A DNA stretch of 29,962 nucleotides, from positions 858,022-887,983 of the forward strand of contig BCKL01000004.1 in the NCBI GenBank assembly GCA_001600635.1. Direction: 5' to 3'. The DNA is from Leucosporidium creatinivorum. Taxonomy: Eukaryota > Basidiomycota > Microbotryomycetes > Leucosporidiales > Leucosporidiaceae. Shown here piece after piece: positions 1-29,962 of the stretch; positions within the stretch are counted from its first letter, which is position 1, and each line of letters begins with the position of its first letter. The notes under the pieces are model-generated. The model was not told the origin of the DNA. It worked only from the letters and a program-made list of their open reading frames with translations, and ran no database searches. Position numbers and translations under genes: made by a program.

Positions 1-1004
1 TCAATCGCTCTCGGCGAAGGCCACCTCCCCGCCGAGCCACTGCTCTACCGTCACTCCAGTCTCTCCCTTGACCTTTTTCAGCACATAGCGTTCCAGATCG
101 TAGTTGGCGTACATGGCCTGCAGTCGAGAGAGCCACATAGTTAGCTCCGAGTCAGGAAAACCAGCCCTCGGCGGACTCACCACCGCGAACCTCATCGCTT
201 CAACGTGCTTCGGACCCGAGGTAGCCTTGATGGCATGTGCGCGAGACATCCAAATGCAGGTAGCAAGGTTGGAGCCGTACGAATTGGGCGCGCCGTACCA
301 ATAGGCGAGGAGGCCGCCCGCCTGTGAACAACCGGAGGAGGGTCAGCGCCGAGAAGGGTTCGGAGTAGGCAGAGAAGGTACATACCGACACTGCCTCTTC
401 GTGAGCAAGTCGATCCGCCTCGTAGAGGTCTCGGGAAGGAGAGTCGGCTGCTCGAGTGGACCGGAACGCGACGATGTACCTGCGAAGGAGGGGCAAGCCG
501 GCGCGAGAGTCAGCTCGGCGTAGAGGCAGCTTGATGTCACAGTACACACCACTCTCGCTCCACTTCTTCCGGTAGTCTCAACTCGGAAAAGTTGAAGGCC
601 TCGGCGTAGTCGTCGTAGGCATAGTTGGGCATCGTCGGCTTGAAGGCGTGCAGGGCGTGGTGCAGAGCGATGGAAGCGGCGTCCACAGTAGGTAGGCGAC
701 TGGTGGTGTATCCTACTGGGTACTGCTCCGCTCGGAGTGGTGTCGCAGGAGGTGTCGACGCTGGCAAAAGCGAGAGAAGGGGAGGGAGGTAAAGAAGGTC
801 GGCCGAGGGCGTTCTGCGCAGATCCGGCAGGTCGGTGGGAGCTCGAGGTGGTGCTGGCTGACGAGCGCGAGTGGTCGCTGCCTTGAAGGAGAATGGACAA
901 CCGCTCGGAGCTGCCAACTTGCTGGATCCGCTCGGAGAAGACGAGGAGAAGGGGCAGCTAGAAGAAGAGCTTTGCGAAGGGCCGGCGACGAGGGCGGTGG
1001 ACAT
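1..1004 (-). CDS. UPF0643-family conserved fungal protein, left copy
   Basis: Four exons (1004-550, 479-386, 321-181, 117-1) join in frame to 268 codons plus a stop. The first about 120 residues are Ser/Pro/Ala-rich and look disordered. The conserved part follows: a TMPNYAYDDYAEAFNFSEL stretch, then REWYIVAFRS across the first splice, AHEEAVSAGGLLAYWYG, NLATCIWMSRAHAIKA, and a C-terminal LERYVLKKVKGETGV block. I recognise this as the fungal UPF0643 family (the fission yeast SPAPB2B2.08 type), from memory and without a search; its biochemical role is unknown. The start is the ATG at 1004; the frame is open further upstream but without another ATG. It is divergent from acetate kinase across a 367-bp shared promoter. 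It looks identical to the right-arm copy. The stop codon is the first three bases of the window. Confidence 0.75.
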
Positions 1005-1371
1005 GACGAGGTGCAGAATCCGAGGTGAGGCAGCAGGACAAGGAGAGAAACTAGCTGTCAGGTGTGGGGAGGCGTCCGTCCGTAGGATGATGAGCGCCAG
1101 CCAGCCGAGCACGCCGAAGGCTGGCAGGGTGGCGTGCGAAAGGTTTGAGCTCGTCGAGATCACGTGATGTTCAACTACAGAGGCTCCTATTTTTGTAGTG
1201 AGCTGTTCTGTAGCTCAGCTGTTCGAGATTCCGATCAAACTCGCTCTTTTGTAGCTGACTGCACTGAGCAGTCTGCCATCGCCGAAGCTCGAACGCCGAG
1301 CCTCGTCAGGCGCTTAACCGAGTTGCGTCGCTCTTTCGCTCTTACTTGTCACTACCTACTCGACTACAGCC
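1005..1371. promoter_or_regulatory. Shared bidirectional promoter, UPF0643 / acetate kinase (left)
   Basis: A 367-bp space between two divergent start codons. It must hold the upstream control elements and 5' leaders of both genes. No TATA box is evident. A short direct repeat AGCTGTTC occurs twice around 1200-1225, and the acetate kinase side is CT-rich (TCGCTCTTTCGCTCTT near 1330), as is common in fungal leaders. The same sequence recurs at 28592-28958. Confidence 0.5.
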
Positions 1372-2909
1372 ATGCCAGCAGCACCAGACTATTGCCTCGC
1401 AGTCAACTGTGGCTCCTCATCCATCAAGTTCAAGCTGTACCAAGCTCACTCTCACCGAGTCGTCCTCGCCGGCTCCGCCTCCAACGTGCAAGGCTCGTCG
1501 CCGGCCAAGTTCACCTTCAAGCATGTACCGCAGCATGAGCAGGACTCTGGCAAGCTCTCGGAGGAGGTCAAGCGCGAGCTCGACTCGTCTACATCATATC
1601 AGGACGTGTTTGAGGAGATCCTGCGAGACGTCACCAGCGACGAGGTGTTGGGCAAAGGCGGCAAGGACCGAATCCAAGTGATTACGCATCGCATCGTGCA
1701 TGGAGGTACAGCCAAGGATCCTGTAGTGATCAAGCATGGCGACAAGAGCGAGCAGGAGACGTTGAAGCGGATGAACGAGGTGTCGGATTTCGCTCCTCTG
1801 CACGTGAGTTGGAGTGTTGCAGGTCTGTGATATAACTTCAGTGATCCTACTGACCCTCCTACAATCAACTAGAACCACCACGCGATGCTGATCGTCAAGA
1901 CTTGCCTCGAATCACTCCCTTCGGCGACCTCTGTCCTCTGCTTCGACACGCTCTTCCACACGACGATCCCTTCCTTCCGCACCACCTACGCCATCTCTAC
2001 TCCCGAGCACGACACGCCCGTACCGCTCGTTCGTTACGGATTCCACGGCCTCAGCTACGCCTCAATCCTCAAGCAGATGAGCGAAGAGCTCAGCATCCCG
2101 GCGAAGGAGGTCAACTTGGTCGTGGCGCACCTCGGCAGTGGTGGGAGTTGTTGCTTGATCCAAGGTGGAGAGAGTAGGAATACGTCGATGGGATTGACGC
2201 CTCTCGAGGGTGAGTAGCTGCAGTGGGAGCGTTCGGCCGAAGCTGGAGCTGATTCGTCGTACTCGCTCCCCACAGGGCTCCCTGGAGGAACTCGCTCTGG
2301 ATCGCTCGACGCCTCCCTCATCTTCCACCACACACCCGACTGCTCCGAGACGGTCGAGTGGTCTGGTCGACCCATCTCCAAGGCCGAGTTTGTCTTGAAC
2401 AAGGAGAGCGGCTTCAAGGGTGAGTCTCACTGCTCTACTGGCGCTGCAGCTGCTGATACTGAGTGACCACCACAGCCCTCACCGGAACGACGGACTTTGG
2501 AGAGATTACCCAACGCGCCTTCCCCGACTCGCCTTCCTCGTCGCCGAGCAAGGAGCAAGAGACCGCCCTTCTCACCTACAACCTCTACCTCGACCGACTC
2601 CTCGGTTTCCTCTACGCCTACATCTCCACTCTCTTCTCCTCCACCGCACCTCACAACAAGCTGCATGGTCTCGTCTTCTCGGGCGGCATTGGAGAGCATT
2701 CGNCGCGCCTGCGCAGGGATGTCCTGGAGCACTTCCGTTGGGTCGAGGAGCTCGCAGGAAGTCAGGGAGGAGTCGACGAGNAGGTGAACGGGGAGGGGAA
2801 GGGCAGAAGGAGGATCACCAAGGAAGGGAGCAGGATCTCGGGNTGGGTCGTCGAAACGGATGAGGAGCTCGAGTGTGTCCAGCTGGCGGTTGCAGCTGCT
2901 GGGCTATAG
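1372..2909 (+). CDS. ackA: Acetate kinase, left copy
   Basis: Acetate kinase interconverts acetyl phosphate + ADP and acetate + ATP. Four exons (1372-1803, 1873-2209, 2276-2419, 2476-2909) give 448 residues, slightly above the usual about 400. Family motifs appear in order: VNCGSSSIKFKLY (residues 11-23, phosphate-binding N-terminus), THRIVHGG (substrate Arg), CFDT with the catalytic Asp at about 169, VAHLGSGGSCC (about 228-238), PGGTRSGSLD with the second catalytic Arg, and FSGGIGEHS with the ATP-site Glu at about 378. A loop rich in Gly/Arg/Glu near the C-terminus (about 395-420) looks like a lineage insertion. Three ambiguous bases (2703, 2781, 2843) lie in the last exon. Argonaute starts only 152 bp downstream on the same strand. 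In fungi this enzyme works with phosphoketolase, which is encoded about 5 kb away. The start ATG sits in a good context and is conserved in the other arm. Confidence 0.93.
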
Positions 2910-3061
2910 AAGTAGTGAAAAGGGTTGCTTTAGTATCTGTAGCTCACCGAATCGCAAATCGAGCCTTCTCGAGCACCGAGAAGTCCTTCTAACCTCGACC
3001 GCTTCGCCTCCCTCGCTCCTTGCTCTCCTCCCACTCGTTTGCCACCCAATCTCGCCTCGCG

Positions 3062-6000
3062 ATGAATCGTCTTGAAGCAGAGATCAAAGCGCTCACGCTC
3101 TCAGCAGGTCAAACGTCGATTCGTAAGCATACTGTCTCTGCCCCTACCAACCTGCAGAAAGAGTTGACTCGAGACGATCTCTCATCTTCTCAACAGCGCT
3201 CGCCGCTCGTCAGCCTCCTGGCACGCTCGGGCGCAAGATCAAGCTACTCGCCAACACCTATGCGCTCAGGATCAAGCCTGTCACCCTCACACACTACGAT
3301 ATCGACGTCAAAGCCGTCAGGACTCGCCCCGCAGCGCCCGCTCGTCCTACGCCGCGAGTGCTCTGCACCCAAGCCCGGGACAAGTTCGTCGAGGACAAGG
3401 AGCAGGAGATGCCCAAGCTCGTCTCCACCGCCTTTGATGGAGTCAAGAACGCCTTCAGCCTCGGCAAGCTCTTCACCGAGGACAGCGCGACCTTCGACAT
3501 TGAGCTCGAGCCCGAGACTCCGACTCGCTCGGCTCCCGTCTTCAAGATCACCCTCAGCGTCGCCGCTCAGATCGACTTATCCATCCACGACGAATACATC
3601 AAGGCTACGAGAGCTGGCTCGGTGTCGGCCGACGCGGCGGCGACGGCCATCATGGGCCTCGACATCCTCCTGCGCCACGACGCTGCTAGGAAGAAGGGCG
3701 TCATCCTGTGTGCCAGCGGAAGGAAGGTGTTTGAGGAGCTCACTGGAAGTACCCACCTCGGAGGCGGCGCGATCATGTTGAAGGGCTTCTTCAGGTGAGC
3801 TGTCATCCGCTCGGCGATGGCTCGCGCTCTCCTCGGCTCGCCAACGCTGATCTCTGTGCTTCCTCTCCTCGCTCCCAGATCAATCCGCCCCACCACTACC
3901 GGCATGGTCGTCAACCTCGACACCGCCTACTCGCCCTACCTCATCTCGGGCAAGCTCCTCGCCGTCTGTTCGACCATCGTCGGCCATCCTCAGCCGGGAA
4001 GTGGTGCACCTGCGACGAGGGGAGGAAGGGGCGGGAGGGGAGGACGAGGAGGAGGCAGGGGAGGAGCGCAGATGGGCGACGGAGGCCAGCAGGTCCGCGA
4101 GTTCTCTTGCTCCGAGCTTCACGAGCTCAAGAGGAAGCTCAAGGGCGCCAAAGTCCGTGTCCTCCATCGGTGAGTCCTCGTCACCACCTTCCCGTCACTT
4201 TCACTATCTCGATGACCTATGCTGACCTCTACTTTCGCCCTACAGCTCCGATCGTCGCGCCTTCCGCATCGTCGGCTTCGGCGCTCCCTCGGGCTCGCAC
4301 GTCGTCATCATCTCCAAGAAGGGCGCCAAGTCGAGCAAACCCAAGCCAACTCCGATGGAGCGCGCCTAGCGTGCTGCTGCAGGACTCCCTACTCCGCCTA
4401 CGCCCGCGCCCGCCCCTCAAGAGAGCCTCACCGTCGCCGAGTATTTCAAGAAGACGTACCCCGCCGTGCAGGTCAACCCAGTGAGCAAAGCGAGCTTGGT
4501 CGAGTGTTCTACACTGACTGATACCCTCTGCAGGCCCTTCAATGCGTCGAGCTTCAAGGCGGCAGCTTCGTTCCGATTGAGGCCCTCGAGGTGAGCTTTG
4601 GCATCTCGACCTCGACCATAGCTGACCTTTCGCGCGCACAGCTCCTCGCCGGCAACGCGCACCCCAACACGGCTCTCAACGCGCAACAGGCGACCACCAT
4701 GATCAACGTCGCCGCCAAACCTCCCGCCGTTCGCATGGCCGAGATCAAGGCGACTCGCGCTTCGCAGGCGTACGAGGCCAACGAGACGCTCAAGGTGTGG
4801 GGTATCGAGGTCAGCTCGGACATGACCAAACTCGAGGGTCGCGTGATTCCTCCTCCTCGCGTCGAGTACAAGTCGCCTCCGCCGAGGGTCGATTCGGGGT
4901 GAGGTCTTGCCGATCCTAGAACGTCTCCAGCGCTCCCCACTGACCGTCGTTGTCTCTCGTAGCTCCTGGAACCTCATCAACTGCAAGTTCCTAGTCCCCA
5001 ACCCCAAGCCTCTCGAGCACTGGGGCGTCATCATCGTCGACTCGCCTCACAAGACTCCTCAGCCTGTCGTCGAGGGCTTCCTTCACACGCTCATGACCCA
5101 AGCGAGAGCTCGTGGGATGAACATCAAGAACTCGGCGCCCCTGTCTACCGTCTACGCTGCGACCGAGGAGCCTACCGACACGCTCCAAGCCCTTCGCAAC
5201 GCTGCCAACGACGTCGCTTCGTCGGTGAGTGACCCCTCGCCCCTTGAGACTCGCACTCGGTCAGAGCATACTTGCCGAGGAGTCCTGTACCTCGAAGGAC
5301 ATGCTTGAGGGCGCATGTCCTGATTCGACGACGTCAGCGCTAACTATCTTCTCGGCTCCTACCTCGGCGCAGCCCTTGAACCCACGTTGTACAGGGAGAC
5401 TCTCCGACGGGCGCCAGCGGATGAGAGCAAGTAATAGAGTGAAGATCAAGAGACAGCTACGCAGTTCTGGCCAAGTCCTTCCACCGCCGGCCACCGCCGG
5501 TCGGCTCTCCGTCCGCCTGCTTCCTCGACCTCGGCTCTCGCCTCCAGTCGCCTCCGAGTCTCCTGGTCCAACATCGTGCGCCGCCTCAGCTGTTCTTCGT
5601 CATTCTCCGCAACCCAAAGGTCTACGACACCTTCAAGAAGCAGGCGACGTGAGTCACACCCTTCTTCTCGCCCTTCACTCGCTGACCTCTCCCTCTTTCA
5701 GCCTCGAGCTCAAGGCGCCTCTCCTCACCCAAGTCTGCCTGGCGAGCAAGATTGGAGCGACGGGGAGGGGCATTGATCGGGTGAGTGCTGGTGGCTGCTC
5801 GCCGAGAGTTCTCTCGCTGACCTTCAACCGACAGTACTGCGGCAACGTCCTCCTCAAAGTCCACGCCAAGCTCGGCGGCGTCAACTCGCAAATCGCTCCC
5901 ACCGACCTCCCTGGATGGACGGCCAAGACGATGATGATCGGAGCTGATGTCACGTGCGCCACAGTGTTCTTCCCACCCTCGGCGCCGAGCTGACTCGCCT

Positions 6001-7297
6001 TTCCGCTCGCCTCGCCCGACAGCCATCCGACGGGAGCAACTACCGTCGGAGTCAACCCCGAGGATCTTCCCTCGTCCATCGCTGCTTCTGTCTCCACTCT
6101 ACCCGGCACAGGAGGACTTCACAGCGTCCAGATCAGGGAGCAAGGAGCACGCGTCGAGTTCATCGCCGAGCTCGAGGGTGAGTCGCTTCCCTCACGATTC
6201 GCTGACCTTACCAGCAGGCTGATCTCTTCTCTTCGCTGCCCTTTCCACTCACTACCACTTCATTCTCCCTCCCTCTTCCTCCCGCCGTTTCGGATTCGCT
6301 CGTCGGCCTTGCAGCCATGGTCAAGACTCACCTCGAGGCTTGGATCCGCTCCTCGAACGGCAGTCGACCCGAGAAGCTCATCATGTGGCGAGATGGAGTA
6401 TCCGAGGGCCAATTCGGTCCCGTCGTCGAGAGCGAGGTAGCGCAGATCAAAGCCGCCTGCCGCTCCATCGACCCTTCCTACTCGCCGAAACTCACGTTCA
6501 TCATCTGCGCGAAACGGTAAGCCCACCGCCTCTCGACTTGGAGCATTCACTTATCCACTGGGCATGCATGAGCTGACCTCTTTCGACTTGCAGTCACCAC
6601 ATCCGCTTCTTCGCCGCCGAGCACAAGGACGGCGATCAGAGGAACTCGGGCAATCTACGTGAGCGGTCTCTGGAGGCGTGCTAACGCTGCTGGCTGACTA
6701 TATCTACCTACAGCTGCTGGAACGGTCGTCGACAGCACATTCACTCACCCCTGGCTGTTCGAGTTCTACCTCCAGGCGAGCTCGGCCTTCCCCTCCCTCC
6801 TTCCCACTGCCTTCCACTGACCTTGCTGCTGTTCTATAGGCGCATGCCGGGCTCAAGGGAACGGCGAAGCCCACTCGCTATGTCGTCCTCCTCGACGAGA
6901 ACAAGTTCAGCTCGGACCACATTGAGAAGCTCGCCAAGTCGGTCGTTGCCTACTCGCTGTCGAGTCGCCGCTGATGAGCTGACAATCTTTTTCGACCGAT
7001 AGCTCCCTGTGTTACAACTTTGCGCGGGCTACTCGAGCGGTCTCTCTTGTGCCCGTCGCGTACTGTGAGCTTCATTTCGCCTCCTTCTCGGCGAAGGTGA
7101 AACTGACCCTCTTCGCCCCCTCCCTAGACGCCGACATCATCTGTACCAAGGCCCGCTCCCTCATCTACGACGACGACTCCTCAACCTCTACTGGAGGTGC
7201 TCGTCGTGCTCGTCGCCCATCGGATTGGATCCAGACTCAGCTCGACCGAACCGTCGAGGGATTCGGCGCTACGATGCCAGCGCAGTGGTTCATGTGA
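3062..7297 (+). pseudogene. AGO: Argonaute, left copy, disrupted
   Basis: Same 17-exon layout as the right-arm gene: 3062-3122, 3197-3794, 3879-4169, 4246-4480, 4534-4590, 4642-4898, 4963-5224, 5373-5648, 5702-5780, 5835-5953, 6023-6177, 6315-6516, 6594-6658, 6714-6775, 6840-6937, 7003-7064, 7128-7297. Two lesions set it apart. Codon 358, in the PAZ region (exon 4), is TAG at 4367-4369 where the right copy has GAG. A 187-bp extra segment (5388-5574) in exon 8 (MID) shifts the frame. All splice sites and the PIWI exons remain readable, with D (GADVTHP), E (ARVEFIAEL), D (WRDGVSEGQF) and D (YYADII) of the tetrad still encoded, so decay is recent. If expressed, it would give about 357 residues: N domain, L1 and part of PAZ, with an internal RGG box. 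A dominant or regulatory role for that fragment cannot be excluded. Confidence 0.85.
5388..5574. mobile_element. 187-bp insertion in left Argonaute exon 8, possibly a small inverted-terminal element
   Basis: The right-arm copy reads CCCACGT directly into CGTGCGCCG; the left copy has 187 extra bases at that junction. The ends are imperfect inverted repeats: the left edge reads ACGTTGTACAGGGAGACTC and the right edge, reverse-complemented, ATGTTGGACCAGGAGACTC (15 of 19 match, counting two flanking bases on the left). No clear target-site duplication and no coding capacity are visible. It lacks GT..AG borders at the junction, so it is not a simple intron. A deletion in the right copy is the alternative, but the right exon reads in frame through the join (PLNPRRAPPQLFFVIL), which favours insertion on the left. 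Confidence 0.35.
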
Positions 7298-7980
7298 AGG
7301 AGCCGAGAGGGGACTAGCTTGTGGCTTGGCGTATATAGCTTGATGTGAATAGCTTTCTGAAGTTGAAAAGTTCTGGTTGCTTGTCGCTCTAGAGCGCCAG
7401 CGAAGCGAAGGATCTCGGCGTTCGTTTCTCTCTCCCTCTGACCACCTCTGCCAGGTTTAGAACCTCACGGGTGGTCAGATATAGGTCGATGAGATTTCAA
7501 CCGAGAAGGGCCAGGGTAGAGGAGGATCGTAACGAAAGCGAGCAGAATCTTCGGACTCGGTGCTCGCGAATGAGAGCGTGTGCAGCTGGCGGTCGCTACT
7601 TCGGTGGCGGCGGTTGAGTAGAACCGATATAGGTGCCATCGCACATGTTACGTACTCGGTTTCATGCAGCGATGTAAGAAGTAAAAGGCTTGGAAGCGTC
7701 ACAGGCGGAGGCCCCACAGAACTGACGCCTCGACCGAGCGAGAGGGGGAGTGGAAGTCGAAGCTGTAGTGAAGTACAAGTCGGGTAGCTGCTCGGAAAGA
7801 CCAGCACGTTCCAGCAGGATCTACCGACTTGGATTGAGAGCTCCCGCGAAGGTTTCGCAGCGGAGGAGCGACCGGCGCCGACTCGAGCCTTCGCGCGGCC
7901 ATGACGAGAGCTCACAAAGCTCGGCCTTCGCTCTTCTGCTTCCTGCCATAACTCTTCGGCAACTTCTTCTCACAGCAAAC
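7298..7980. other. Argonaute 3' region and phosphoketolase promoter
   Basis: The first about 135 bp belong to the inverted repeat and hold the Argonaute 3' UTR, which includes GCGTATATAGC and is shared with the other arm. The repeat ends at 7432. The remaining about 550 bp are single-copy and should contain the phosphoketolase promoter and leader. A 146-residue open frame on the - strand (7475-7915) has no recognisable motif and is most likely chance. I see no RNA gene or clear regulatory site. Confidence 0.5.
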
Positions 7981-10900
7981 ATGCCTTCCTCTGAGGCTCC
8001 CACACCCCCCGTCATCCCCTCCGAGCTCAGCAAGACTCCCGATGCACCTCTCTCCTCCCTTGCGGTGGAGCTCGACACGAGCGACTTGAGCTCGCTTCCC
8101 AAGGGCCACCTCCAGGCCATCATCGACAACTGGCGCGCATCTTGCTACATCGCGTCGGCCCAGGTGAGTTGCCCATAGCTGTACAGGATACGCTGTAGTA
8201 CAGCGGTCGCCTACAGCTCACTAACGATGCGTCTCTCGTCCCCGCCGAATATAGATCTTTCTCCAATCCAACGCCCTCCTGACCGAGAAGTTGACCAAGG
8301 AGCACATCAAACCTCGTCTGCTCGGGCATTATGGTACAACCGGAGGTCTCGCCTTCGCCTACTCGCATACGCAAGGCCTCGTTCGTCGCAAGGGAGAGAT
8401 TGACGGCAAGGAGCCCAAGGCGCTCTTCGTCACGGGCCCTGGTCACGGAGGTAAGTTGTTAGTACTCATGGGATACCTTGCGTGCTCCGCTGTCCGCTGA
8501 CTCGCCTCTGCCCTCCAACAGCCCCCGCCATCCTCTCGGAGCTCTTCATCGAGGGTGCCATCACCAAGTTCTACCCTCAATACCCTCAGACCGAGGAGGG
8601 CTTCAGCCGCTTCGTCCGTGGATTTTCCTGGCCTGGAGGATTCCCCTCCCACGTCAACGTGAGTTCCCGATCCCGAAGCGAGCGAGTCGATTCCAGCACG
8701 TGTTCGGCGAAGCTGACCCTCGGCTCCTTCTTCTCACAGGCTGAGACCCCCGGCTGCATCCACGAGGGTGGAGAGCTTGGATATGCTCTCGCTGTAGCCT
8801 ACGGCAGCGTTTTCGACAACCCCGACCTCATCTCGGTGGTTGTCGTCGGCGATGGAGAGAGCGAGACGGGCCCCACCGCTACCGCTTGGCAGTAAGTTCG
8901 ACTCTCTGTAGAGTCTACTAGAGAGGCTGACGAACCCCACTTGTACAGCTCGCACAAGTGGCTCGACCCCAAGGAGAGCGGAGCTGTCCTCCCCATCCTG
9001 CACGTCAACGGCTTCAAGATCTCGGAGCGCACCATCCCGGGCACCATGGACAAGACGGAGCTTGCCCTTCTCTACACTGGCTACGGCTACCAGGTTCGCT
9101 TCGTCGACTACGTCAAGCAGGGCGAGCCCACCATGGGAGGAAACGATCCCGCCGACATCGCCGTGCACGAGGACATGGCCGTCACCTTCGACTGGTAAGT
9201 TCTCGGCGATTCCCCTCTCTTTGGCGCTCGCTCACGCATTCTTCGCTTTGTGCAGGGCCTACGCTGAGATTCGCAGGATCCAGGAGGCTGCTCGCAGTGG
9301 CAAACCCCTCGACAAGCCTCGCTGGCCTCTCATCATCATGCGCACTCCCAAGGGATGGACTGGCCCTCTCGCCGACCACGGAACGCAGCTCCTCAACAAG
9401 TGAGTACTCTCCCCATCTCTCCGTCTTGCTCCACAGCAGCTAACATGCCTTTCTTACAGCTTCGCCTCCCACCAAGTTCCCCTCCCAGGCGCCAAGACCG
9501 ACGACGAGCAGCTCGCACATCTCGAGAAGTGGCTCAAGTCCTACAATCCCGAGCGCTTCTTCAACACCTCCGCCAAGCCCGACGAGCCTCTCCTTAGCGA
9601 CATCTTCGAGGCCGGCCTCCCTCGCGACCAGGAGCGCCGTCTCGGCTTCCTTCAGGAGTCGTACCACGCCTACAAGCCTCTCGAGCTGAGCGACTGGAAG
9701 GAGTTCGGATACGAGAAGGGCAAGGAGGACGTCTCTTGCATGAAGGCCATCGGAAAGTATCTCTCCGACACCATCAAGAAGAACCCCGATTCGTACCGCA
9801 TCTTCTCGCCCGACGAGTTGGCGTCGAACAAGCTCGACGGAGTGTTCGACAACACTCAGCGCAACTTCCAGTGGGACCCACTTACGGCGCATGAGGGTGG
9901 GCGAGTCACTGAGATGGTGAGGCGGGCAACTTTGGCGACGTTTCCAGCTCGGCGTTGACATTCGTGCTTCTTACAGCTCTCCGAGCACACTCTTCAAGGA
10001 TGGATGCAAGGCTACACACTCACTGGACGTCATGGAACGTTCCCTTCGTACGAGGCTTTCCTCGGCATCGTCGCCAGTACGTCGTTTGCCCTCGACTGCG
10101 AGCCTACGCCGAGCTGACTTTGAACTCGCTTCACTCATCAGCCATGATGGTTCAGTACGCCAAGTTCAACAAGATGGTACGTTTGCTACATTTCTCTCGC
10201 ACTACAGCTCTGTCTCATGACAGGCCCAGTCGCTGAAACTCATCCACTTCTCCCCTCACAGGCGCTCGAGACCAACTGGCGCGGCAAGACCGCCTCGCTC
10301 AACTACATTGAGACCTCCACCTGGACTAGGCAGGAGCACAACGGATACTCTCACCAGAACGTGAGCTCTACTCGCCGATTCGTTCTTGCGCCGTCGCTGA
10401 CTCCTCGCCGTCGTCGCAGCCCGGCTTCATCTCCAGCATCCTCCAGCTTCCTACCAACATGGCTCGCGTCTACTTCCCGTGAGCTTTGATCGTACATCTT
10501 GCTAACTTCGGACATACTGACGCGCAGAACCCTCCTGCAGCGCCGACGCCAACACCTCGGTCTCGGTCATGGCTCACTGCCTCAAGTCGACTGGCTACGT
10601 CAACCTCATCGTCGGAACCAAGGCTCCCTCGCCCGTGTACCTCACTGTCGAGCAGGCCGATGCTCACTGTATCGCAGGTGCTAGCATTTGGGAGAGTGAG
10701 TGATCTTCTCTCGGTGCTGTCGAATCCAGCTGACCCCTTTTCGCTCTCTCAGACTACTCGGTCGACAAGGGAGTCGACCCCGACGTCGTCCTCGTCGGTA
10801 TCGGGTACGAGCTCACTCAGGAAGTCATCGCCGCTGCCGCCCTCTTCAAGAAGGACTACGGCTCCGACCTTCGCGTCCGAGTCGTGAACATCGTCGACCT

Positions 10901-18895: not shown

Positions 18896-21800
18896 ATGCC
18901 TTCACGGCCCGTCGGGGATGTCCCTAGACGGGAATCGACCTACGACCGAGAGCGCCACCGCGACGGCGGACGTGGCGACGGCAGGGGAACGGGTGCTCCT
19001 CCTAGCAGCCGCACTCCAGCAGCAGACGACGAGGATCGCATCGGCCCATACTTGATCGGCGAGGAGATTGGCAGAGGGTCATTCGCTACAGTCTTTCGGG
19101 GAGCCCGCTATGTAAGTCGAAAAGCTGCACCTTTCGTCCCCCATCCCCGAGCGCTCCCTTTGAGCTCGTCTGGGGTTGGCGCTCCGAAAGCACGAGTGAC
19201 CTCATAGCTCACTCGGTGCACTCGCCTACAGGACACGCGCACACCTGTGGCCATCAAATCGGTCATCCGGAGCAAGCTTACTACCAAGCTGCTCGAGAAC
19301 CTCGAGTCCGAGATCTCCATCCTCAAGCGGATCACCCACCGCAACATTGTCGAGCTCAAGGACTGCCTGGTGAGTGCAGTGAACGCTTACATAATATCTA
19401 GTTGCTGACCTGACGTCCTACAGAAAACCGAGACGCACATCTACCTCATCATGGCCTTCTGCTCGGCGGGCGACCTCTCCCTCTACATCCGCAAGCGGGG
19501 CGACCTCGCAGCTCTCACCGCGTCGAACCAAGGGCTACTACCAGAAGCAGGAAGAGCACGGGAGGAGCTCAAGCCCATCATGTATCCGCATCCAAAGGAG
19601 GGAGGACTCAACGAGACTATCGTTCGCTGCTTCCTCGGCCAGCTCGGTGAGGCCTTTCGGCTGTGCTTGGAGTTCGAGCGTGCTGCTGACCTCTCCTTTC
19701 ACCCACAGTCGATGCTCTTCGGTTTCTACGGTCTCAGAATGTCATCCATCGAGACATCAAGCCTCAGGTTCGTCTTGAGTATCTCGAACGCCCGAGTCGA
19801 GGCTGTTGGCTGACGTCCTTGGACCCCGCAGAACCTCCTGCTACAGCCAGCAGACGCTTCAGACCTCGCTGCTGGTCACCCACCAGGCATTCCCGTCCTC
19901 AAAGTCGCCGACTTTGGCTTCGCTCGGTGGCTTCCTCAGCAGAGCATGGCCGAGACGCTCTGTGGATCGCCGTCAGTCCAATCACCGGCCTTGTAGAAGC
20001 TCACCACTGACTTGTCGATCTCACAGACTCTACATGGCGCCCGAGATCCTGCGGTACGAGAAGTACGACGCCAAAGCCGACCTCTGGTCGGTCGGCGCCG
20101 TCCTCTTCGAGATGAGCGTCGGCAAGCCACCTTTCCGCGCTCAAAACCACGTCGACCTCCTTCGTAAGATCGAGCGCGGCGAAGACAAGATTAAGTTTCC
20201 CGACGAGAAGCGGGTCGAGGAGGGCACCGACAAAGTGCCGACCAAGGTGGCCCCCGATCTAAAGGCTCTCATTCGGCAGCTCCTCAAACGCAACCCCACG
20301 GAGCGTATGAACTTTGAGGATTTCTTTCGGGAAGCCACCGCCGTCGCCACGGGAGGAAGCGCCAGCAACCTCGTCTCCCCCGAAGGCGTCTCGGCTCGTC
20401 ACGCGGCTGCAGCTGCCGCCGTTCGACCTGGTCGGCCAGCACCAAGCATCCCTCGCTCGACCATTCCCACTGCCTCTTCTCCCCGCACCGAAGCTCGGGA
20501 CGCCTTCATCGTCACCGCCGCTGCGGCCGCCTACGCTCAACCCGCCGCCATCCCTCCACCTTCACCCTTGCCAAGACCCACTCCTGTCGCCTCTGCATCT
20601 CCCCCTACACCTCAAATCCCCGCTTATGGAGACCCGGAACCCCTTCCGTTCGCTCGACGGACGAGCAGCACTTCGGCGACGCCCTCAGCGCCGGGGATGA
20701 AGCGACCGCCGAGCTTCGCTCCCAAGTACGTCGTCGGAGGCTCGCAGGGCGAGCAGGAGGGAGTCAAGGTCCGCGATTATGCGCAGGAGAGACGACCGAG
20801 TGCGATCAGCAGGACGAGGTGAGTTGGCGCGAGTTTCACCGCGAGCTCAGCCGAGCTGACGTTTCCTTTGAACAGTGAGCCATCATCGCCCCTGCCTGGG
20901 ACTACACCGCCGTCAGCGGTCGAGCGCTTCGCTGCCACCAACACCAAGTCGGCGGGAGACAGCATGTCGGACTCGAACGACTCGATCCTCGGTCGAGATT
21001 ACGTTGTCGTCGAGAAGCGGACTGTCGAGATCAACGCTCTGGCCGATGGTGATCTGACGTCTCGTTATCTCTTGCGACACGGTAGCTTACTCTCGTCGAC
21101 CTGCAGAGCTTGCCAGTGCACCGAAGCGGCAGAGCGCTGTCGCTCGGCGCCCCTCACGAGGCTTCCTGTCGCGGCCACCAAGCTCCATCGGCAACCCAGC
21201 CCCCGCCGCCGCGCCTTCTTCCACCTCTCCAGTCTCCCCTTACCCCCCACCCGCTCCACCCGCTCCCTCGGCCGACAATGGCTCCACCCCGCCATTCGCC
21301 ATCCCAGGCGGCCAGCGAGCCACTCCGTCCCCTCATCCCTACTCGCTCTCCTCCTCGCCTCGTCCACTCTCCTTCCTCTCCTCCTCACCTCGGAGTCTCA
21401 CTCATCCCATCGAGCGCTTCCCTGGCTCGCCCCTCGCGCTGGTCGGCAGCCCAACAGCCGCCATCGCCAAGGCGCTCAACATGGCCTCGCTCAAGATCTT
21501 CGGCTCGCCCACAGACGGCATCCTCGTTCGTCGAAGCTCAGCTCGCAAGCCGATCACTCGGTCAGCTCAGGTCGTCGACCCTGAGGAGGACAAGGTGCTC
21601 TCCGACCTCGAGGATATCGCTCAGAAGGCGCTCGTCCTCTTCGACTTCGCCGACAGCAAGATCATGCAGATCCTCCCTCCGACGCCTCAAACCTCCTCCT
21701 CGACATCGCTCGGCACCCCTTCCTACTTCTCGCACGTCGCCGCCCGCGAGCAGTCCGCCTCCAACCCCTTCAGCGCCGTCCCGACCCCTTCCTCACCTCA

Positions 21801-22458
21801 GATGAGGCGCACCTCGTCCTCCTCGTCGGATCGGCCTTTCGTCCTCGCCAACTCGGCCAAGGCAGACGTGCTCGCTGCTGAGGCCGTCGTCCTCTACCTC
21901 AAATCTCTCGCATTCCTGCACAAGGGAATCGAGAAGGCTCGGCATCACTGGTCGAACCGAGCGCCGGAGCAGGTGGCCAGCTCCGACTTTAACGAAGGTG
22001 AGCTTGGCGCGTCGATGAGCTGGGAGCCTTGCTGATGTCTCCGCTTCCACACAGCTGTCCAATGGTTCCGCCAACGCTTCAACGAGTGCTTCGACAAGGC
22101 CGACTTTGCCAAGTCGCGCTGCCAGGACGACATTCCCGAGTCGGCTACGTTCGCCGAGAAGCTCGTCTACGACCGCGCATTGGAGATCGTACGTCCCTTC
22201 TGGCTCCCCGTCTCCGCCTCCTCACTGACTCCCTTGGCTACGCAGTCTCGCGCCGCTGCGGTCAACGAGCTCCGAGGCGAGAACCCCACCGATTGCGAGA
22301 CGGCCTACGAGACGGCTCTGTGGATGCTCTACGCCATCCTCGACGAGACGATGACCGGTCAAGCCGACTCGGTGGACGACGAGGATCGGTCGACCGTCAA
22401 CAAGTTCGTTGCCAGCATTTCGGCGAGGCTGAGCGCTTTGAGGCGCAAAATCGCTTAA
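18896..22458 (+). CDS. ATG1: Autophagy-initiating Ser/Thr kinase ATG1 (ULK family)
   Basis: Starts autophagosome formation together with Atg13 and Atg17. Ten exons (18896-19111, 19232-19369, 19424-19646, 19709-19767, 19832-19971, 20027-20818, 20876-21048, 21107-21997, 22055-22188, 22246-22458) give 992 residues. Kinase domain (about 50-340): Gly loop [17 protein letters not shown] Lys, [10 protein letters not shown] (204-213), DFG at 239-241, [12 protein letters not shown] activation segment. A long Pro/Ser/Ala-rich disordered region follows. It holds [13 protein letters not shown] near residue 565, matching the conserved Atg8-interacting YxxV motif of yeast Atg1. The C-terminal about 220 residues (from [13 protein letters not shown] to the end) correspond to the tandem MIT domain that binds Atg13. 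The fourth intron uses a GTTCGT donor and must be spliced for the kinase domain to be complete. It converges with the right Argonaute. Confidence 0.95.
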
Positions 22459-22853
22459 AGTGCCATTTTTGCCCCCTTTCTATTCCATCTCCGCCCTCGA
22501 TCCCAATCCTTTCCGACTGCATCATGCTCTTGCCTCCCCCCTCATCCTCTGTACGATCTCGCAATCGCTCTCGCTCCCCCGCGCCGCGCCCCCCCCCCCC
22601 CTACTAGCAACACAACACATCGACTTAGCCCTACATTGTACTCTTGAGTAGTTGTTTCTGTCAGTTTCCACTTTGCATCCGATTCTACGCAGCGAGAGAG
22701 GGAGAGAGCCCGGCGCTTGAGAGAAACGGACGCCGAGATCCTTCGCTTCGCTGGCGCTCTAGAGCGACAAGCAACCAGGGCTTTGCAACTTCAGAAAGCT
22801 ATTCACATCAAGCTATATACGCCAAGCCACAAGCTAGTCCCCTCTCGGCTCCT
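22459..22853. other. Convergent 3' spacer between ATG1 and right Argonaute, with a C13 tract
   Basis: 395 bp shared by two 3' ends. A run of 13 C (22589-22601) lies in the single-copy part. The inverted repeat begins at about 22719, preceded by a purine-rich GAGAGAGGGAGAGAG stretch (22693-22707). The part from 22719 on matches the left Argonaute 3' region. Confidence 0.55.
22589..22601. repeat. Poly-C tract (13 bases)
   Basis: Thirteen consecutive C about 130 bp after the ATG1 stop codon and about 120 bp before the right arm of the inverted repeat. Confidence 0.85.
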
Positions 22854-25800
22854 TCACATGAACCACTGAGCGGGCAGCGTAGCGCCGAATCCCTCGACGG
22901 TTCGGTCGAGCTGAGTCTGGATCCAGTCCGATGGGCGACGAGCACGACGAGCACCTCCAGTAGAGGTTGAGGAGTCGTCGTCGTAGATGAGGGAGCGGGC
23001 CTTGGTACAGATGATGTCGGCGTCTAGGGAGGGGGCGAAGAGGGTCAGTTTCACCTTCGCCGAGAAGGAGGCGAAATGAAGCTCACAGTACGCGACGGGC
23101 ACAAGAGAGACCGCTCGAGTAGCCCGCGCAAAGTTGTAACACAGGGAGCTATCGGTCGAAAAAGATTGTCAGCTCATCAGCGGCGACTCGACAGCGAGTA
23201 GGCAACGACCGACTTGGCGAGCTTCTCAATGTGGTCCGAGCTGAACTTGTTCTCGTCGAGGAGGACGACATAGCGAGTGGGCTTCGCCGTTCCCTTGAGC
23301 CCAGCATGCGCCTATAGAACAGCAGCAAGGTCAGTGGAGGGCAGTAGGAAGGAGGGAAAGGAAGGCCGAGCTCGCTTGGAGGTAGAACTCTAACAGCCAG
23401 GGGTGGGTGACAGTGCTGTCGACGACCGTTCCAGCAGCTGTAGGTAGATGGAGTCAGCTGGACTAAGTAGCTCGGCTCGAGAGACAGCTCACGCAGATTG
23501 CCCGAGTTCCTCTGATCGCCGTCCTTGTGCTCGGCGGCGAAGAAGCGGATGTGGTGACTGCAAGCCGGGCGAGGTCATCTCGTGCACGCCGAGCAGATAT
23601 TAAAAGCTCGGGATCAGGATGAGACGGATTACCGCTTCGCACAAATGATGAAGGTGAGCTTGGGCGAGTAGGAAGGGTCGATGGAGCGGCAAGCGGCCTT
23701 GATCTGCGCCACCTCGCTCTCGACGACGGGACCAAACTGGCCCTCGGATACTCCATCTCGCCACATGATAAGCTTCTCGGGTCGAATGCCGTTCGAAGAG
23801 CGGATCCAAGCCTCGAGATGAGTCTTGACGATCGCTGCGAGGGCGACGAGCGAGTGCGAAACGGCGGGAAGGAGAGGCAGGGAGGATAAAGTGGTAGTGA
23901 GTGGAAGCGACAGCGAAGAAAAGAGGTCAGCCTGCTAGTACGACGACCGAATCGTGGGGGAAGCGACTCACCTTCGAGCTCGGCGATGAACTCGACGCGC
24001 GCTCCTTGTTCCCTGATCTGAACGCTGTGGAGGCCTCCCGTGCCGGGGAGAGTAGACACCGAAGCAGCGATGGACGAGGGAAGATCCTCGGGGTTGACTC
24101 CGACGGTGGTCGCGCCGGTGGGATGACTGTCGGGCGAGGCGAGAGGAGAGCGGAGTCAGCTCGGCGCCGAGGGTGGGAAGAACGCTGTGGCGTACGTGAC
24201 ATCAGCTCCGATCATCATCGTCTTGGCCGTCCATCCAGGGAGGTCTGTGGGAGCGATCTGCGAGTTGACGCCGCCGAGCTTGGCGTGGACTTTGAGGAGG
24301 ACGTTGCCGCAGTACTGTCGGTTGAAGGTCAGCGAGAGAACTCTCGGCGAGCAGCCACCAGCACTCACCTGATCAATGCCCCTCCCCGTCGCTCCAATCT
24401 TGCTCGCCAGGCAGACTTGGGTGAGAAGAGGCGCCTTGAGCTCGAGGCTGAAAGAGGGAGAGGTCAGCGAGTGAAGGGCGAGAAGATCGGTGTGGCTCAC
24501 GTGGCCTGCTTCTTGAAGGTGTCGTAGACATTTGGGTTGCGGAGGATGACGAAGAACAGCTGAGGCGGCGCACGACGTGGGTTCAAGGGCTGCGCCGAGG
24601 TAGGAGCCGAGAAGATAGTTAGCGCTGACGTCGTCGAATCAGGACATGCGCCCTCAAGCATGTCCTTCGAGGTACAGATCCTCTCGGCAAGTATGCTCTG
24701 ACCGAGTGCGAGTCTCAAAGGGCGAGAGGTAACTCACCGACGAAGCGACGTCGTTGGCAGCGTTGCGAAGGGCTTGGAGCGTGTCGGTAGGCTCCTCGGT
24801 CGCAGCGTACACGGTGCAGAGTGGCGTTGGATTCTTGATGTTCATCCCACGAGCTCTCGCTTGGGTCATGAGCGTATGAAGGAAGCCGTCGACGACCGAC
24901 TGAGGGGTCCTCTGCGCCGAGTCGACGATGATGACGCCCCAGTGCTCGAGAGGCTTGGGGTTGGGGACTAGGAACTTGCAGTTGATGAGGTTCCAGGAGC
25001 TATGGGAGAGAATGGCGGTCAGCGGGGAGCACCGGACAAAGCGCAGGAGCAAGACGACGAACCCCGAGTCGACCCTCGGCGGAGGCGACTTGTACTCGAC
25101 GCGAGGAGGAGGAATGACGCGACCCTCGAGCTTGGTCATGTCCGAGCTGACCTCGATACCCCACACCCTGAGCGTCTCGTTGGTCTCGTACGCCTGCGAA
25201 GCGCGAGTCGCCTTGATCTCGGCCATGCGAACGGCGGGAGGTTTGGCGGCGACGTTGATCATGGTGGTCGCCTGTTGCGCGTTGAGAGCCGTGTTGGGGT
25301 GCGCGTTGCCGGCGAGGAGCTATGGGCGCGGCGGGTCAGCCCTATGTTCGAGGTCGAGATGCCAAAGCTCACCTCGAGGGCCTCAATCGGAACGAAGCTG
25401 CCGCCTTGAAGCTCGACGCATTGAAGAGCCTGCAGAGAGTATCAGTCAGTGTAGAACACTCGACCAAGCTCGCTTTACTCACTGGGTTGACCTGCACGGC
25501 GGGGTACGTCTTCTTGAAGTACTCGGCGACGGTGAGGCTCTCTTGAGGGGCGGGCGCGGGCGTAGGCGGAGGAGGGAGTCCTGCAGCAGCACGCTCGGCG
25601 CGCTCAGTCGGAGTTGGCTTGGGTTTGCTCGACTTGGCGCCCTTCTTGGAGATGGTGACGACGTGCGAGCCCGAGGGAGCGCCAAAGCCGACGATGCGAA
25701 AGGCGCGACGATCGGAACTGTAGGGCGAGGGTAGAGGACAGCATAGGTCGCCGAGGCATCTCAGTCCGTTGTAGAGATGAGAGCGAGGACTCACCGATGC

Positions 25801-26901
25801 AGGACGCGGACTTTGGCGCCCTTGAGCTTCCTCTTGAGCTCGTGAAGCTCGGGCCGAGAGAACTCGCGAACCTGCTGTCCTCCGCCTCCCATTACCGCTC
25901 CTCCCCTGCCTCCCCTCCCTCCTCGTCCACCCCTACCTCCCCTCGTAGCAGGTGCACCACTTCCAGGCTGAGGACGGCCGACGATGGTCGAGCTGACGGC
26001 GAGGAGCTTGCCCGAGATGAGGTAGGGTGAGTAGGCGGTGTCGAGGTTGACGACCATGCCGGTAGTGGTGGGGCGGATGGACCTGGGAGCGACGGGAAGG
26101 AAGCGTAGAGTGAGCGTGGGCGAGACGAGGAGAGCGCGAGCCATCGCCGAGCGGATGACGAGCTCACCTGAAGAAGCCCTTCAACATGATCGCGCCTCCT
26201 CCAAGACTGGTGCTTCCAGTGAGCTCCTCAAACACCTTCCTTCCACTAGCACCGAGGATGACCCCCTTCTTCCGCGCAGCGTCGTGGCGAAGCAGAATGT
26301 CGAGGCCCATGATGGCCGTCGCCGCCGCGTCTGCTGAGACCGAGCCAGCTCTCGTAGCCTTGGTGAACTCGTCGAGAATGGAGAGGTCGATCTGAGCGGC
26401 GACGCTGAGGGTGATCTTGAAGGTGGGAGCCGAGCGAGTCGGAGTCTCGGGCTCGAGCTCGACGTCAAAGGTCGCGCTGTCCTCGGTGAAGAGCTTGCCG
26501 AGGCTGAAGGCGTTCTTGACTCCATCAAAGGCGGTGGAGACGAGCTTGGGCATCTCCTGCTGCTTGTCCTCGACGAACTTGTCCCAGACTTGGGTGCAGA
26601 GCACTCGCGGCGTAGGACGAGCGGGCGCTCCGGGGCGAGTCCTTATGGCTTTGATGTCGATATCGTAGTGTGTGAGAGTCACAGGCTTGATCCTGAGCGC
26701 GTAAGTGTTGGCGCGTAGCTTGATCTTGCGCCCGAGCGTCCCAGGAGGCTGACGAGCGGCGAGCGCTGTTGAGAAGATGAGAGATCGTTTCGAGTCAGCT
26801 CTTTCTGCAGGTCGGTAGGGGGCAGGGACAGCATGCTTACGAATCGACGTTTGACCTGCTGAGAGCGTGAGCGCTTTAATCTCGGCTTCGAGACGATTCA
26901 T
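22854..26901 (-). CDS. AGO: Argonaute (small-RNA-guided PIWI protein), intact right copy
   Basis: Core effector of RNA interference. Seventeen exons: 26901-26841, 26765-26168, 26082-25795, 25717-25483, 25429-25373, 25319-25063, 24999-24738, 24589-24501, 24447-24369, 24314-24196, 24126-23972, 23834-23633, 23557-23493, 23437-23376, 23311-23214, 23148-23087, 23023-22854. They join in frame to 952 residues. Order: N domain (GRKIKLRANTYALRI), L1 (GGGAIMLKGFFRSIRPT), an RGG box (about 267-281), PAZ, MID with guide 5'-phosphate residues Y608, K612, Q626 and K654, and PIWI. The tetrad D680 (GADVTHP), E727 (ARVEFIAEL), D760 (MWRDGVSEGQF), D899 (YYADII) is complete, so slicing is predicted. Exon 14 is followed by a GC-AG intron. 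Intron 6 has a GTTCGT donor (GTGAGG in the left copy) and would add 21 in-frame codons if retained. It lies 152 bp after acetate kinase. Confidence 0.93.
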
Positions 26902-27053
26902 TGCGAGGCGAGATTGGGTGGCAAACGAGTGGGAGGAGAGCAAGGAGCGAGGGAGGCGAAGCGGTCNAGGTTAGAAGGACTTCTCGGTGCTCGAGAAGGC
27001 TCGATTTGCGATTCGGTGAGCTACAGATACTAAAGCAACCCTTTTCACTACTT

Positions 27054-28591
27054 CTATAGCCCAGCAGCTGCAACCGCCAGCTGGACACACTCGAGCTCCT
27101 CATCCGTTTCGACGACCCANCCCGAGATCCTGCTCCCTTCCTTGGTGATCCTCCTTCTGCCCTTCCCCTCCCCGTTCACCTNCTCGTCGACTCCTCCCTG
27201 ACTTCCTGCGAGCTCCTCGACCCAACGGAAGTGCTCCAGGACATCCCTGCGCAGGCGCGNCGAATGCTCTCCAATGCCGCCCGAGAAGACGAGACCATGC
27301 AGCTTGTTGTGAGGTGCGGTGGAGGAGAGTAGGGTCGAGATGTAGCTGGAGAGGAAGCCGAGTAGTCGGTCAAGGTAGAGGTTGTAGGTCAGGAGGGCGG
27401 TCTCTTGCTCCTTGCTCGGCGACGAGGAAGGCGAATCTGGGAAGGCGCGCTGAATGATCTCTCCAAAATCGGTCGATCCGGTGAGGGCTGCGGTAGTCAC
27501 TCAGTATCAGCAGCTGCAGCGCCAGTAGAGCAGTGAGACTCACCCTTGAAGCCGCTCTCCTTGTTCAAGACAAACTCGGCCTTGGAGATGGGTCGACCAG
27601 ACCACTCGACCGTCTCGGAGCAGTCGGGTGTGTGGTGGAAGATGAGGGAGGCGTCGAGCGATCCAGAGCGAGTTCCTCCAGGGAGCCCTGTGGGGAGCGA
27701 GTACGACGAATCAGCTCCAGCTTCGGCCGAACGCTCCCACTGCAGCTACTCACCCTCGAGAGGCGTCAATCCCATCGACGTATTCCTACTCTCTCCACCT
27801 TGGATCAAGCAACAACTCCCACCACTGCCGAGGTGCGCCACGACCAAGTTGACCTCCTTCGCCGGGATGCTGAGCTCTTCGCTCATCTGCTTGAGGATTG
27901 AGGCGTAGCTGAGGCCGTGGAATCCGTAACGAACGAGCGGTACGGGCGTGTCGTGCTCGGGAGTAGAGATGGCGTAGGTGGTGCGGAAGGAAGGGATCGT
28001 CGTGTGGAAGAGCGTGTCGAAGCAGAGGACAGAGGTCGCCGAAGGGAGTGATTCGAGGCAAGTCTTGACGATCAGCATCGCGTGGTGGTTCTAGTTGATT
28101 GTAGGAGGGTCAGTAGGATCACTGAAGTTATATCACAGACCTGCAACACTCCAACTCACGTGCAGAGGAGCGAAATCCGACACCTCGTCCATCCGCTTCA
28201 ACGTCTCCTGCTCGCTCTTGTCGCCATGCTTGATCACTACAGGATCCTTGGCTGTACCTCCATGCACGATGCGATGCGTAATCACTTGGACTCGGTCCTT
28301 GCCGCCTTTGCCCAACACCTCGTCGCTGGTGACGTCTCGCAGGATCTCCTCAAACACGTCCTGATATGATGTAGACGAGTCGAGCTCGCGCTTGACCTCC
28401 TCCGAAAGCTTGCCAGAGTCCTGCTCCTGCTGCGATACATGCTTGAAGGCGAATTTGGCCGGCGACGAGCCTTGCACGTTGGAGGCGGAGCCGGCAAGGA
28501 CGACTCGGTGAGAGTGAGCTTGGTACAGCTTGAACTTGATGGATGAGGAGCCACAGTTGACTGCGAGGCAATAGTCTGGTGCTGCTGGCAT
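27054..28591 (-). CDS. ackA: Acetate kinase, right copy
   Basis: Mirror copy of the left acetate kinase: exons 28591-28160, 28090-27754, 27687-27544, 27487-27054, 448 residues. The same motifs are intact (VNCGSSSIKFKLY, HRIVHGG, CFDT, HLGSGGSCC, GGTRSGSLD, GGIGEHS). It differs from the left copy by a handful of substitutions outside the active site, for example FTFKHVPQHEQ versus FAFKHVSQQEQ in exon 1 and FLYAYISTLF versus FLSSYISTLL in exon 4. Exon 2 looks identical. Three N in the last exon mirror those of the left copy. Both copies look functional, giving a double dose of the step after phosphoketolase. Confidence 0.93.
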
Positions 28592-28958
28592 GGCTGTAGT
28601 CGAGTAGGTAGTGACAAGTAAGAGCGAAAGAGCGACGCAACTCGGTTAAGCGCCTGACGAGGCTCGGCGTTCGAGCTTCGGCGATGGCAGACTGCTCAGT
28701 GCAGTCAGCTACAAAAGAGCGAGTTTGATCGGAATCTCGAACAGCTGAGCTACAGAACAGCTCACTACAAAAATAGGAGCCTCTGTAGTTGAACATCACG
28801 TGATCTCGACGAGCTCAAACCTTTCGCACGCCACCCTGCCAGCCTTCGGCGTGCTCGGCTGGCTGGCGCTCATCATCCTACGGACGGACGCCTCCCCACA
28901 CCTGACAGCTAGTTTCTCTCCTTGTCCTGCTGCCTCACCTCGGATTCTGCACCTCGTC
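28592..28958. promoter_or_regulatory. Shared bidirectional promoter, acetate kinase / UPF0643 (right)
   Basis: The 367-bp mirror of 1005-1371, between divergent start codons. It appears identical to the left copy, so both acetate kinase copies should be controlled alike unless position effects intervene. Confidence 0.5.
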
Positions 28959-29962
28959 ATGTCCACCGCCCTCGTCGCCGGCCCTTCGCAAAGCTCTTCT
29001 TCTAGCTGCCCCTTCTCCTCGTCTTCTCCGAGCGGATCCAGCAAGTTGGCAGCTCCGAGCGGTTGTCCATTCTCCTTCAAGGCAGCGACCACTCGCGCTC
29101 GTCAGCCAGCACCACCTCGAGCTCCCACCGACCTGCCGGATCTGCGCAGAACGCCCTCGGCCGACCTTCTTTACCTCCCTCCCCTTCTCTCGCTTTTGCC
29201 AGCGTCGACACCTCCTGCGACACCACTCCGAGCGGAGCAGTACCCAGTAGGATACACCACCAGTCGCCTACCTACTGTGGACGCCGCTTCCATCGCTCTG
29301 CACCACGCCCTGCACGCCTTCAAGCCGACGATGCCCAACTATGCCTACGACGACTACGCCGAGGCCTTCAACTTTTCCGAGTTGAGACTACCGGAAGAAG
29401 TGGAGCGAGAGTGGTGTGTACTGTGACATCAAGCTGCCTCTACGCCGAGCTGACTCTCGCGCCGGCTTGCCCCTCCTTCGCAGGTACATCGTCGCGTTCC
29501 GGTCCACTCGAGCAGCCGACTCTCCTTCCCGAGACCTCTACGAGGCGGATCGACTTGCTCACGAAGAGGCAGTGTCGGTATGTACCTTCTCTGCCTACTC
29601 CGAACCCTTCTCGGCGCTGACCCTCCTCCGGTTGTTCACAGGCGGGCGGCCTCCTCGCCTATTGGTACGGCGCGCCCAATTCGTACGGCTCCAACCTTGC
29701 TACCTGCATTTGGATGTCTCGCGCACATGCCATCAAGGCTACCTCGGGTCCGAAGCACGTTGAAGCGATGAGGTTCGCGGTGGTGAGTCCGCCGAGGGCT
29801 GGTTTTCCTGACTCGGAGCTAACTATGTGGCTCTCTCGACTGCAGGCCATGTACGCCAACTACGATCTGGAACGCTATGTGCTGAAAAAGGTCAAGGGAG
29901 AGACTGGAGTGACGGTAGAGCAGTGGCTCGGCGGGGAGGTGGCCTTCGCCGAGAGCGATTGA
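28959..29962 (+). CDS. UPF0643-family conserved fungal protein, right copy
   Basis: Exons 28959-29413, 29484-29577, 29642-29782, 29846-29962 give 268 residues, apparently identical to the left copy, with the same WYIVAFRS, GGLLAYWYG, NLATCIW and LERYVLKK blocks. It is divergent from the right acetate kinase. The stop codon is the last three bases of the window. Function is unknown; the family name rests on recognition of the conserved blocks. Confidence 0.75.

Follow-up and report, generated by a model that had tools for sequence, protein, structure and literature searches.

Two mirrored, Argonaute-bearing arms around a 15.3-kb core in Leucosporidium creatinivorum: a probable old inverted duplication with patchy gene conversion

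Introduction

Palindromes that carry genes and undergo gene conversion from arm to arm are familiar above all from sex chromosomes and mating-type loci. In the basidiomycete Leucosporidium creatinivorum (assembly GCA_001600635.1; 27.7 Mb in 63 contigs), a 30-kb stretch of a 1,497,895-bp scaffold (C4:858022-887983; hereafter the window, 29,962 bp in full) carries acetate kinase and Argonaute genes in two mirrored arms around a core, which raises the question of whether the arms are two genuine loci and, if so, how they came to be alike in some places and diverged in others. According to our analysis, the locus is most probably an old inverted segmental duplication of nuclear DNA in a haploid-looking assembly, the arms of which would have been patchily homogenised by ectopic gene conversion.

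Architecture of the inverted repeat

An inverted repeat with arms of 7.2-7.4 kb around a 15-kb core had been proposed in the initial annotation, and blastn self-comparison placed the arm ends accordingly.

1 to 7432, plus strand: left arm (arm 1), 7432 bp; the repeat picks up again past a run of 2800 Ns, reaching C4:853549
7433 to 22718, plus strand: core, 15,286 bp between the arm/core boundaries
22719 to 29962, minus strand: right arm (arm 2), 7244 bp; the repeat picks up again past a run of 4920 Ns, reaching C4:894572

The repeat was detected as 11 blocks of 89-99% identity. The difference in arm length comes from a 187-bp segment (5387-5573) together with eight indels of 1-3 bp; position x mirrors 29963-x up to about position 3140, and no difference separates 1-1466 from its mirror. 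That two distinct versions of the sequence exist, set apart by the 187-bp segment and many substitutions, was rightly noted at the outset, and they occupy two places on the 1.5-Mb scaffold. The arm length first given was too short, as the repeat resumes beyond the N runs, presumably scaffold gaps, that border the window on both sides. There, C4:853549-855221 matches 894572-892904 in inverted orientation at 94.9%, and the full arms measure about 11.9 and 13.8 kb, gaps included. Both outer arm parts contain an IF-2B-family gene; the nearest solved relatives of the right-copy protein are methylthioribose-1-phosphate isomerases (MRI1), which makes an MRI1-like gene the fourth arm gene. The genes of the arms within the window are as follows.

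1 to 632, minus strand: UPF0643-like small gene, arm 1; 144-aa model, sequence identical in both arms
29331 to 29962, plus strand: mirror copy of 1 to 632, arm 2
1372 to 2909, plus strand: acetate kinase, arm 1; 425-aa model, 4 exons
27054 to 28591, minus strand: acetate kinase, arm 2; 425-aa model, PF00871
3062 to 7297, plus strand: Argonaute, arm 1; TAG in frame at 4367, Mid-coding exon carrying a 187-bp insertion
22854 to 26901, minus strand: Argonaute, arm 2; ab initio full-length model, 965 aa

Pfam domains support two of the three names originally assigned to these genes, acetate kinase and Argonaute. Profile searches found no Pfam family for the small gene, and "UPF0643" is kept here as a presumed, unconfirmed name. 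The acetate kinase frame is readable in both arms (Ns read as A in both models) and PF00871 was confirmed on the arm-2 model.

Each arm has an outer and an inner junction. All four differ, and at each the sequences diverge within a few bases; no shared sequence was found past them within 90 kb around the locus. The inner junctions are sited just downstream (3') of the Argonaute genes, and the flanks outside the repeat contain a KH-domain gene on the left and VPS8 on the right. Among the seven single Ns of the window, three recur at mirrored positions of the two arms (2703/2781/2843, corresponding to 27260/27182/27120) and a fourth arm-2 N stands opposite a C. The mirrored Ns suggest sites where the copies differ but where the difference could not be assigned to one copy; we read the assembly as haploid-looking, with the single Ns marking such unassignable differences between repeat copies.

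Mosaic divergence between the arms

Differences between the arms are unevenly placed and form a mosaic, as in the acetate kinase and Argonaute genes.

2468 to 2634, plus strand: divergence island in acetate kinase with 23 differences; mirror at 27329-27495
6849 to 7224, plus strand: identical stretch at the Argonaute 3' end, 376 bp over exons and introns; mirror at 22927-23302

In the acetate kinase island, synonymous divergence (dS) reaches 0.474 over 55 codons, flanked by 138 and 85 codons without any difference, and dS of the first exon is 0.03. Neighbouring Argonaute introns differ between the arms by 0 to 35%. In class-preserving permutations (exon/intron, n=1000, covering 3145 to the inner arm end), the longest identical run did not exceed 177 bp, compared with the observed 376 bp (reached in 0/1000), and the variance of difference counts per 100 bp was 10.8, compared with 37.3 observed (likewise 0/1000). 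A uniform clock fails to produce dS of 0 beside dS of 0.47 together with long identical tracts; the mosaic points to patchy conversion. Three features that mark a gene-conversion palindrome were found at this locus: inverted gene-bearing arms with a spacer, differing outer and inner ends, and identical tracts beyond chance.

In the assembly, a block consisting of the MRI1-like gene, an unsequenced gap, the UPF0643-like gene, acetate kinase and Argonaute is present twice, in mirror orientation, around the 15.3-kb core. We posit that non-reciprocal exchange (ectopic gene conversion) homogenises the arms in patches; it may have erased nearly all differences in the outer genes of the window and in scattered Argonaute patches, leaving islands that retain the old divergence. 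The 376-bp identical stretch may be a recent conversion tract. The exchange would have taken place between these two arms, and crossovers between them could flip the core. A GC bias of conversion was considered and dropped, as the shifts run in opposite ways with no consistent sign: third-position GC is 0.805 in identical runs of at least 75 bp and 0.743 elsewhere, and non-coding GC is 0.559 and 0.584, respectively.

Several points weigh against this interpretation. The evidence comes from a single assembly of one strain. Single Ns and N runs point to a scaffolded draft, in which collapse by the assembler could account for part of the perfect identity of 1-1466, and the N runs are unequal (2800 and 4920), so that hidden arm parts may differ. 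The permutation classed a likely intron (3123-3197) as exon, of which the part from 3145 on entered the test. Uneven mutation rates could contribute to the mosaic, though hardly to dS of 0 next to 0.47 within one gene. Collapse may likewise exaggerate the identity of the outer 3 kb; it fits less well with the N-free 376-bp run and with the mosaic of a second Argonaute pair, on scaffold C25, described below.

The two Argonaute copies

Argonaute arm 1 and arm 2 differ by dS 0.177 and nonsynonymous divergence (dN) 0.021 over 939 codons, a low dN/dS (dS 0.172 and dN 0.023 over 963 codons prior to intron removal). The arm-2 model combines ArgoN, L1, L2, Mid and Piwi in one gene, as in a eukaryotic Argonaute; its PAZ domain scored below the cut-off (20.8 vs 28.8 bits). 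Acidic motifs, presumably the Argonaute catalytic motifs, were spotted by eye.

The arm-1 copy is probably not full length, judging from its stop at 4367 and the following insertion.

5387 to 5573, plus strand: 187-bp insertion, arm 1 only, in the Argonaute Mid-coding exon

This element has one further copy in the genome (C15:186587-186781, 98%; element size 187-196 bp) and an imperfect terminal inverted repeat of ~16 bp seen by eye, and resembles a miniature inverted-repeat transposable element. The C15 copy sits inside a 273-bp inverted repeat of 84% identity adjoining a sugar transporter. A third lesion, a 1-bp deletion at 3141, was discarded, as by eye the surrounding 3123-3197 is probably an intron (GTAAGC...AACAG) and no frameshift is counted; the case for a triple-lesion pseudogene lapses with it. 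An in-frame acceptor within the insertion, also placed by eye, might preserve the frame via splicing, and the label pseudogene is not certain. From these gene models, arm 2 would supply the working Argonaute, and the arm-1 copy may be decaying or altered.

Inverted Argonaute pairs elsewhere in the genome

A Piwi search of the genome (20/20 candidates scored; loci counted by eye) gave eight Argonaute loci: two on C4, one in each arm, four on C14 and two on C25. These include two further inverted pairs, and a control family contributed a third.

C14:651528-654294 and 661605-658839, inverted: Argonaute pair, 2767 bp, 99.9%
C25:30434-34964 and 77107-81662, inverted: Argonaute pair, 87.9%, ~42 kb apart
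C13:50173-57050 and 59123-66000, inverted: sugar-transporter pair, at least 6,878 bp, 99.96%, 2.07-kb spacer

The C14 pair differs at three positions and has one mirrored N, and its outer and inner neighbours differ between the two sides. For the right copy, ArgoN exons lie in the spacer; the left-copy model lacks them and is 5'-truncated, with a mannosyltransferase-family gene on its side of the spacer. The C25 copies differ by dS 0.27 and dN 0.043 over 976 codons, with a significant mosaic (0/1000 permutations), and the aligned part is free of stops and frame-breaking indels according to the copy-b model; the gene models fused upstream sequence, so that their limits are approximate, and the unguided copy-a model deviates in places. 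The C4, C14 and C25 pairs have no DNA match to one another. All four C14 loci lie within 75 kb, the other two (615 kb and 688 kb) forming a direct pair that is partly 85-90% alike. The C13 pair also carries a Tcp11-domain gene, and the outer end of its right arm lies beyond the sequence covered.

Repeats of this kind had been considered unusual in fungal nuclear chromosomes outside mating-type or subtelomeric regions. The position of the locus and the STE3 search speak against either setting here, and three comparable pairs elsewhere in the genome show that it is no isolated case. The locus lies at 858-888 kb of the 1,498-kb scaffold, more than 600 kb from either end; three-fold TTAGGG matched on C2, C6, C15, C42 and C63 and not on C4, and a reversed control likewise gave five matches. 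No STE3 match was found on C4 (5/5 candidates scored), the only matches being two pieces at C25:435951-436551. C25 thus bears both the genome's only STE3 matches and an Argonaute pair, toward opposite scaffold ends.

By eye, 6/8 Argonaute loci lie in inverted pairs, vs 2/~34 loci of the control families: sugar transporters (9 loci, from the best 9 of 189 candidates), aldo-keto reductases (~20), RNA-dependent RNA polymerase (RdRP; 4) and STE3 (1). With the window pair set aside, the counts are 4/6 vs 2/34 (Fisher 0.002 counting genes, 0.026 counting pairs), where pair members are non-independent and control families were chosen by us. Judged by scores and positions only, no equal-score inverted pair occurs among the aldo-keto reductases (49/49 candidates, loci counted by eye), which include a close opposite-strand pair with unequal scores on C26 and a direct pair on C1, and none of the four RdRP loci (10/10 candidates) is close to another. 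An Argonaute-only pattern is refuted by the C13 pair, and we treat the Argonaute excess as a lead only.

The excess could reflect selection for the inverted arrangement itself, either as copies that can be corrected by conversion or as a source of double-stranded RNA from mirror copies that tunes dosage. The counts above would fit this explanation, as would the altered or truncated copy in two of the three Argonaute pairs, but it is unlikely: the counts are small, the search started from an Argonaute locus, and the sugar-transporter pair emerged from merely the best 9 of 189 candidates. The direct Argonaute pair on C14 and the close opposite-strand pair on C26, scores of which differ, also argue against it, as does the inconsistent orientation of the Argonaute pairs, which point inward on C4 but outward on both C14 and C25. 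As a broader proposal, which we put forward tentatively and regard as rather improbable, Argonaute genes might be preferentially maintained on three scaffolds as long-lived inverted pairs that diverge and are re-homogenised by conversion, two of the three consisting of a full and an altered or truncated copy. If true, this would provide a palindrome-based means to keep, diversify or dose RNA-silencing genes outside any sex chromosome, and a real Argonaute bias would connect the way RNA silencing evolves with genome architecture.

Possible artefacts and other explanations

The duplication could also be apparent only, if the assembler had placed two alleles of one locus head to head. In favour of such joining, the window is set between two N runs, its outer arms look collapsed and Ns are mirrored. 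Palindromes in the 2013 assembly of Adineta vaga were reportedly later judged artefacts. They are a cautionary case, as no such palindromes were seen in the relative A. ricciae (PMC5916493). We nevertheless consider this explanation quite unlikely. Joined alleles would not make two differing inner junctions to a core for which no second copy was found, nor two differing outer flanks, and intron differences of up to 35% are large for alleles. No allele-like second copy of the 9-kb left flank or of 5,080 bp on the right side was found in the genome: the former matches itself only, bar one 0.8-kb stretch with partial relatives, and the latter, which includes 1,669 bp of arm, matches the other arm only. 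Of the sequence pieces covering the region, L006, L009 and L010 are free of ambiguity letters, which also speaks against allele joining; N runs occur in L005 and L007, and L008 combines one N run with two single Ns. The C14 pair likewise has differing outer and inner neighbours.

Fold-back chimeras from whole-genome amplification are palindromic (PMC6218980; PMC13265396), and two of the four pairs are more than 99.8% alike. Folding back should reproduce the source exactly, yet the C4 and C25 arms have diverged with a synonymous excess and the C14 pair has two differing outer flanks; we regard this origin as highly improbable. Centromeres of the type seen in fission yeast and Candida tropicalis, where inverted repeats lie on either side of a core, would resemble the locus in anatomy. 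That the locus is such a centromere is still harder to credit given the ordinary conserved genes in core and arms and the lack of DNA matches among the C4, C14 and C25 pairs (C. tropicalis compared from PMC4741521).

Comparison with known palindromes

Human Y palindromes lie on a non-recombining sex chromosome and have arms that are near-identical throughout. Mirrored gene-bearing arms and arm-to-arm conversion are described for them (Rozen et al., 2003, as cited in PMC12510652, PMC5490193 and PMC526376). The C4 locus has similarly mirrored arms, which conversion between them would have homogenised, but lies on a scaffold without an STE3 match and retains much old divergence. Closer in phylogeny, the pheromone genes of the Cryptococcus mating-type locus (MAT) lie in ~500-bp inverted repeats, the similarity of which is probably maintained by intra-allelic conversion (PMC526376). 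Both cases concern a basidiomycete with inverted gene copies and putative conversion; the Cryptococcus repeats are short and within MAT, whereas those described here span about 12-14 kb with gaps, with four genes per arm and no STE3 match on the scaffold. In Folsomia candida, 11/15 intra-scaffold linked gene blocks are palindromic, with synonymous divergence of ~0.2 in one (PMC5490193). Several inverted intra-scaffold gene blocks and a synonymous divergence of ~0.2 are shared with our case, but F. candida is an animal, and conversion is suggested for it without a mosaic in the relevant part of that report (PMC5490193).

Inverted gene-bearing palindromes with conversion are hence already known, and the Argonaute link over three loci is the noteworthy part. 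Among the matches listed in our literature searches (titles, with subscription papers poorly covered), there was no report of Argonaute inverted pairs in fungi. Microbotryum lychnidis-dioicae, which we take to belong to the same broad group as this fungus, allows a comparison of gene numbers. It has two Argonautes and one RdRP (PMC4469406), vs eight and four loci here. With several such palindromes in one genome, and introns ~30% apart in arms that are apparently still exchanging, L. creatinivorum may serve as a microbe for studying palindrome maintenance. Where assemblies collapse such arms, copies of Argonaute, acetate kinase and similar genes would be miscounted and their sequences blended.

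Core genes and flanking repeats

Six single-copy genes had been annotated in the core. Domains were confirmed for three, the limits of which are approximate, as the gene finder fused neighbouring core genes.

7981 to 11366, plus strand: phosphoketolase (XFP); start as placed by the gene finder, end set by the open reading frame
14018 to 16601, plus strand: FAD-linked oxidase (FAD_binding_4, FAD-oxidase_C); extent approximate
19409 to 22458, plus strand: ATG1-like kinase (Pkinase, MIT1, MIT2); extent approximate

Single copy was established genome-wide for 7433-16400 (8,968 of the 15,286 bp), and a local check of 16401-22718 found no second copy within 90 kb around the locus. Phosphoketolase yields acetyl phosphate, the substrate used by acetate kinase, and pathway partners are therefore placed near one arm/core junction.

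The 0.8-kb stretch of the left flank (L006:8120-8938) belongs to a repeat family with six partial relatives of 71-84% identity, five of them on C4.

C4:772250, 775162, 1424347, 1465551 and 1465830; C22:239627: relatives of the left-flank repeat

On the right flank, C4:913509-913706 and 917533-917734 form a weak inverted pair of 200 bp (68%).

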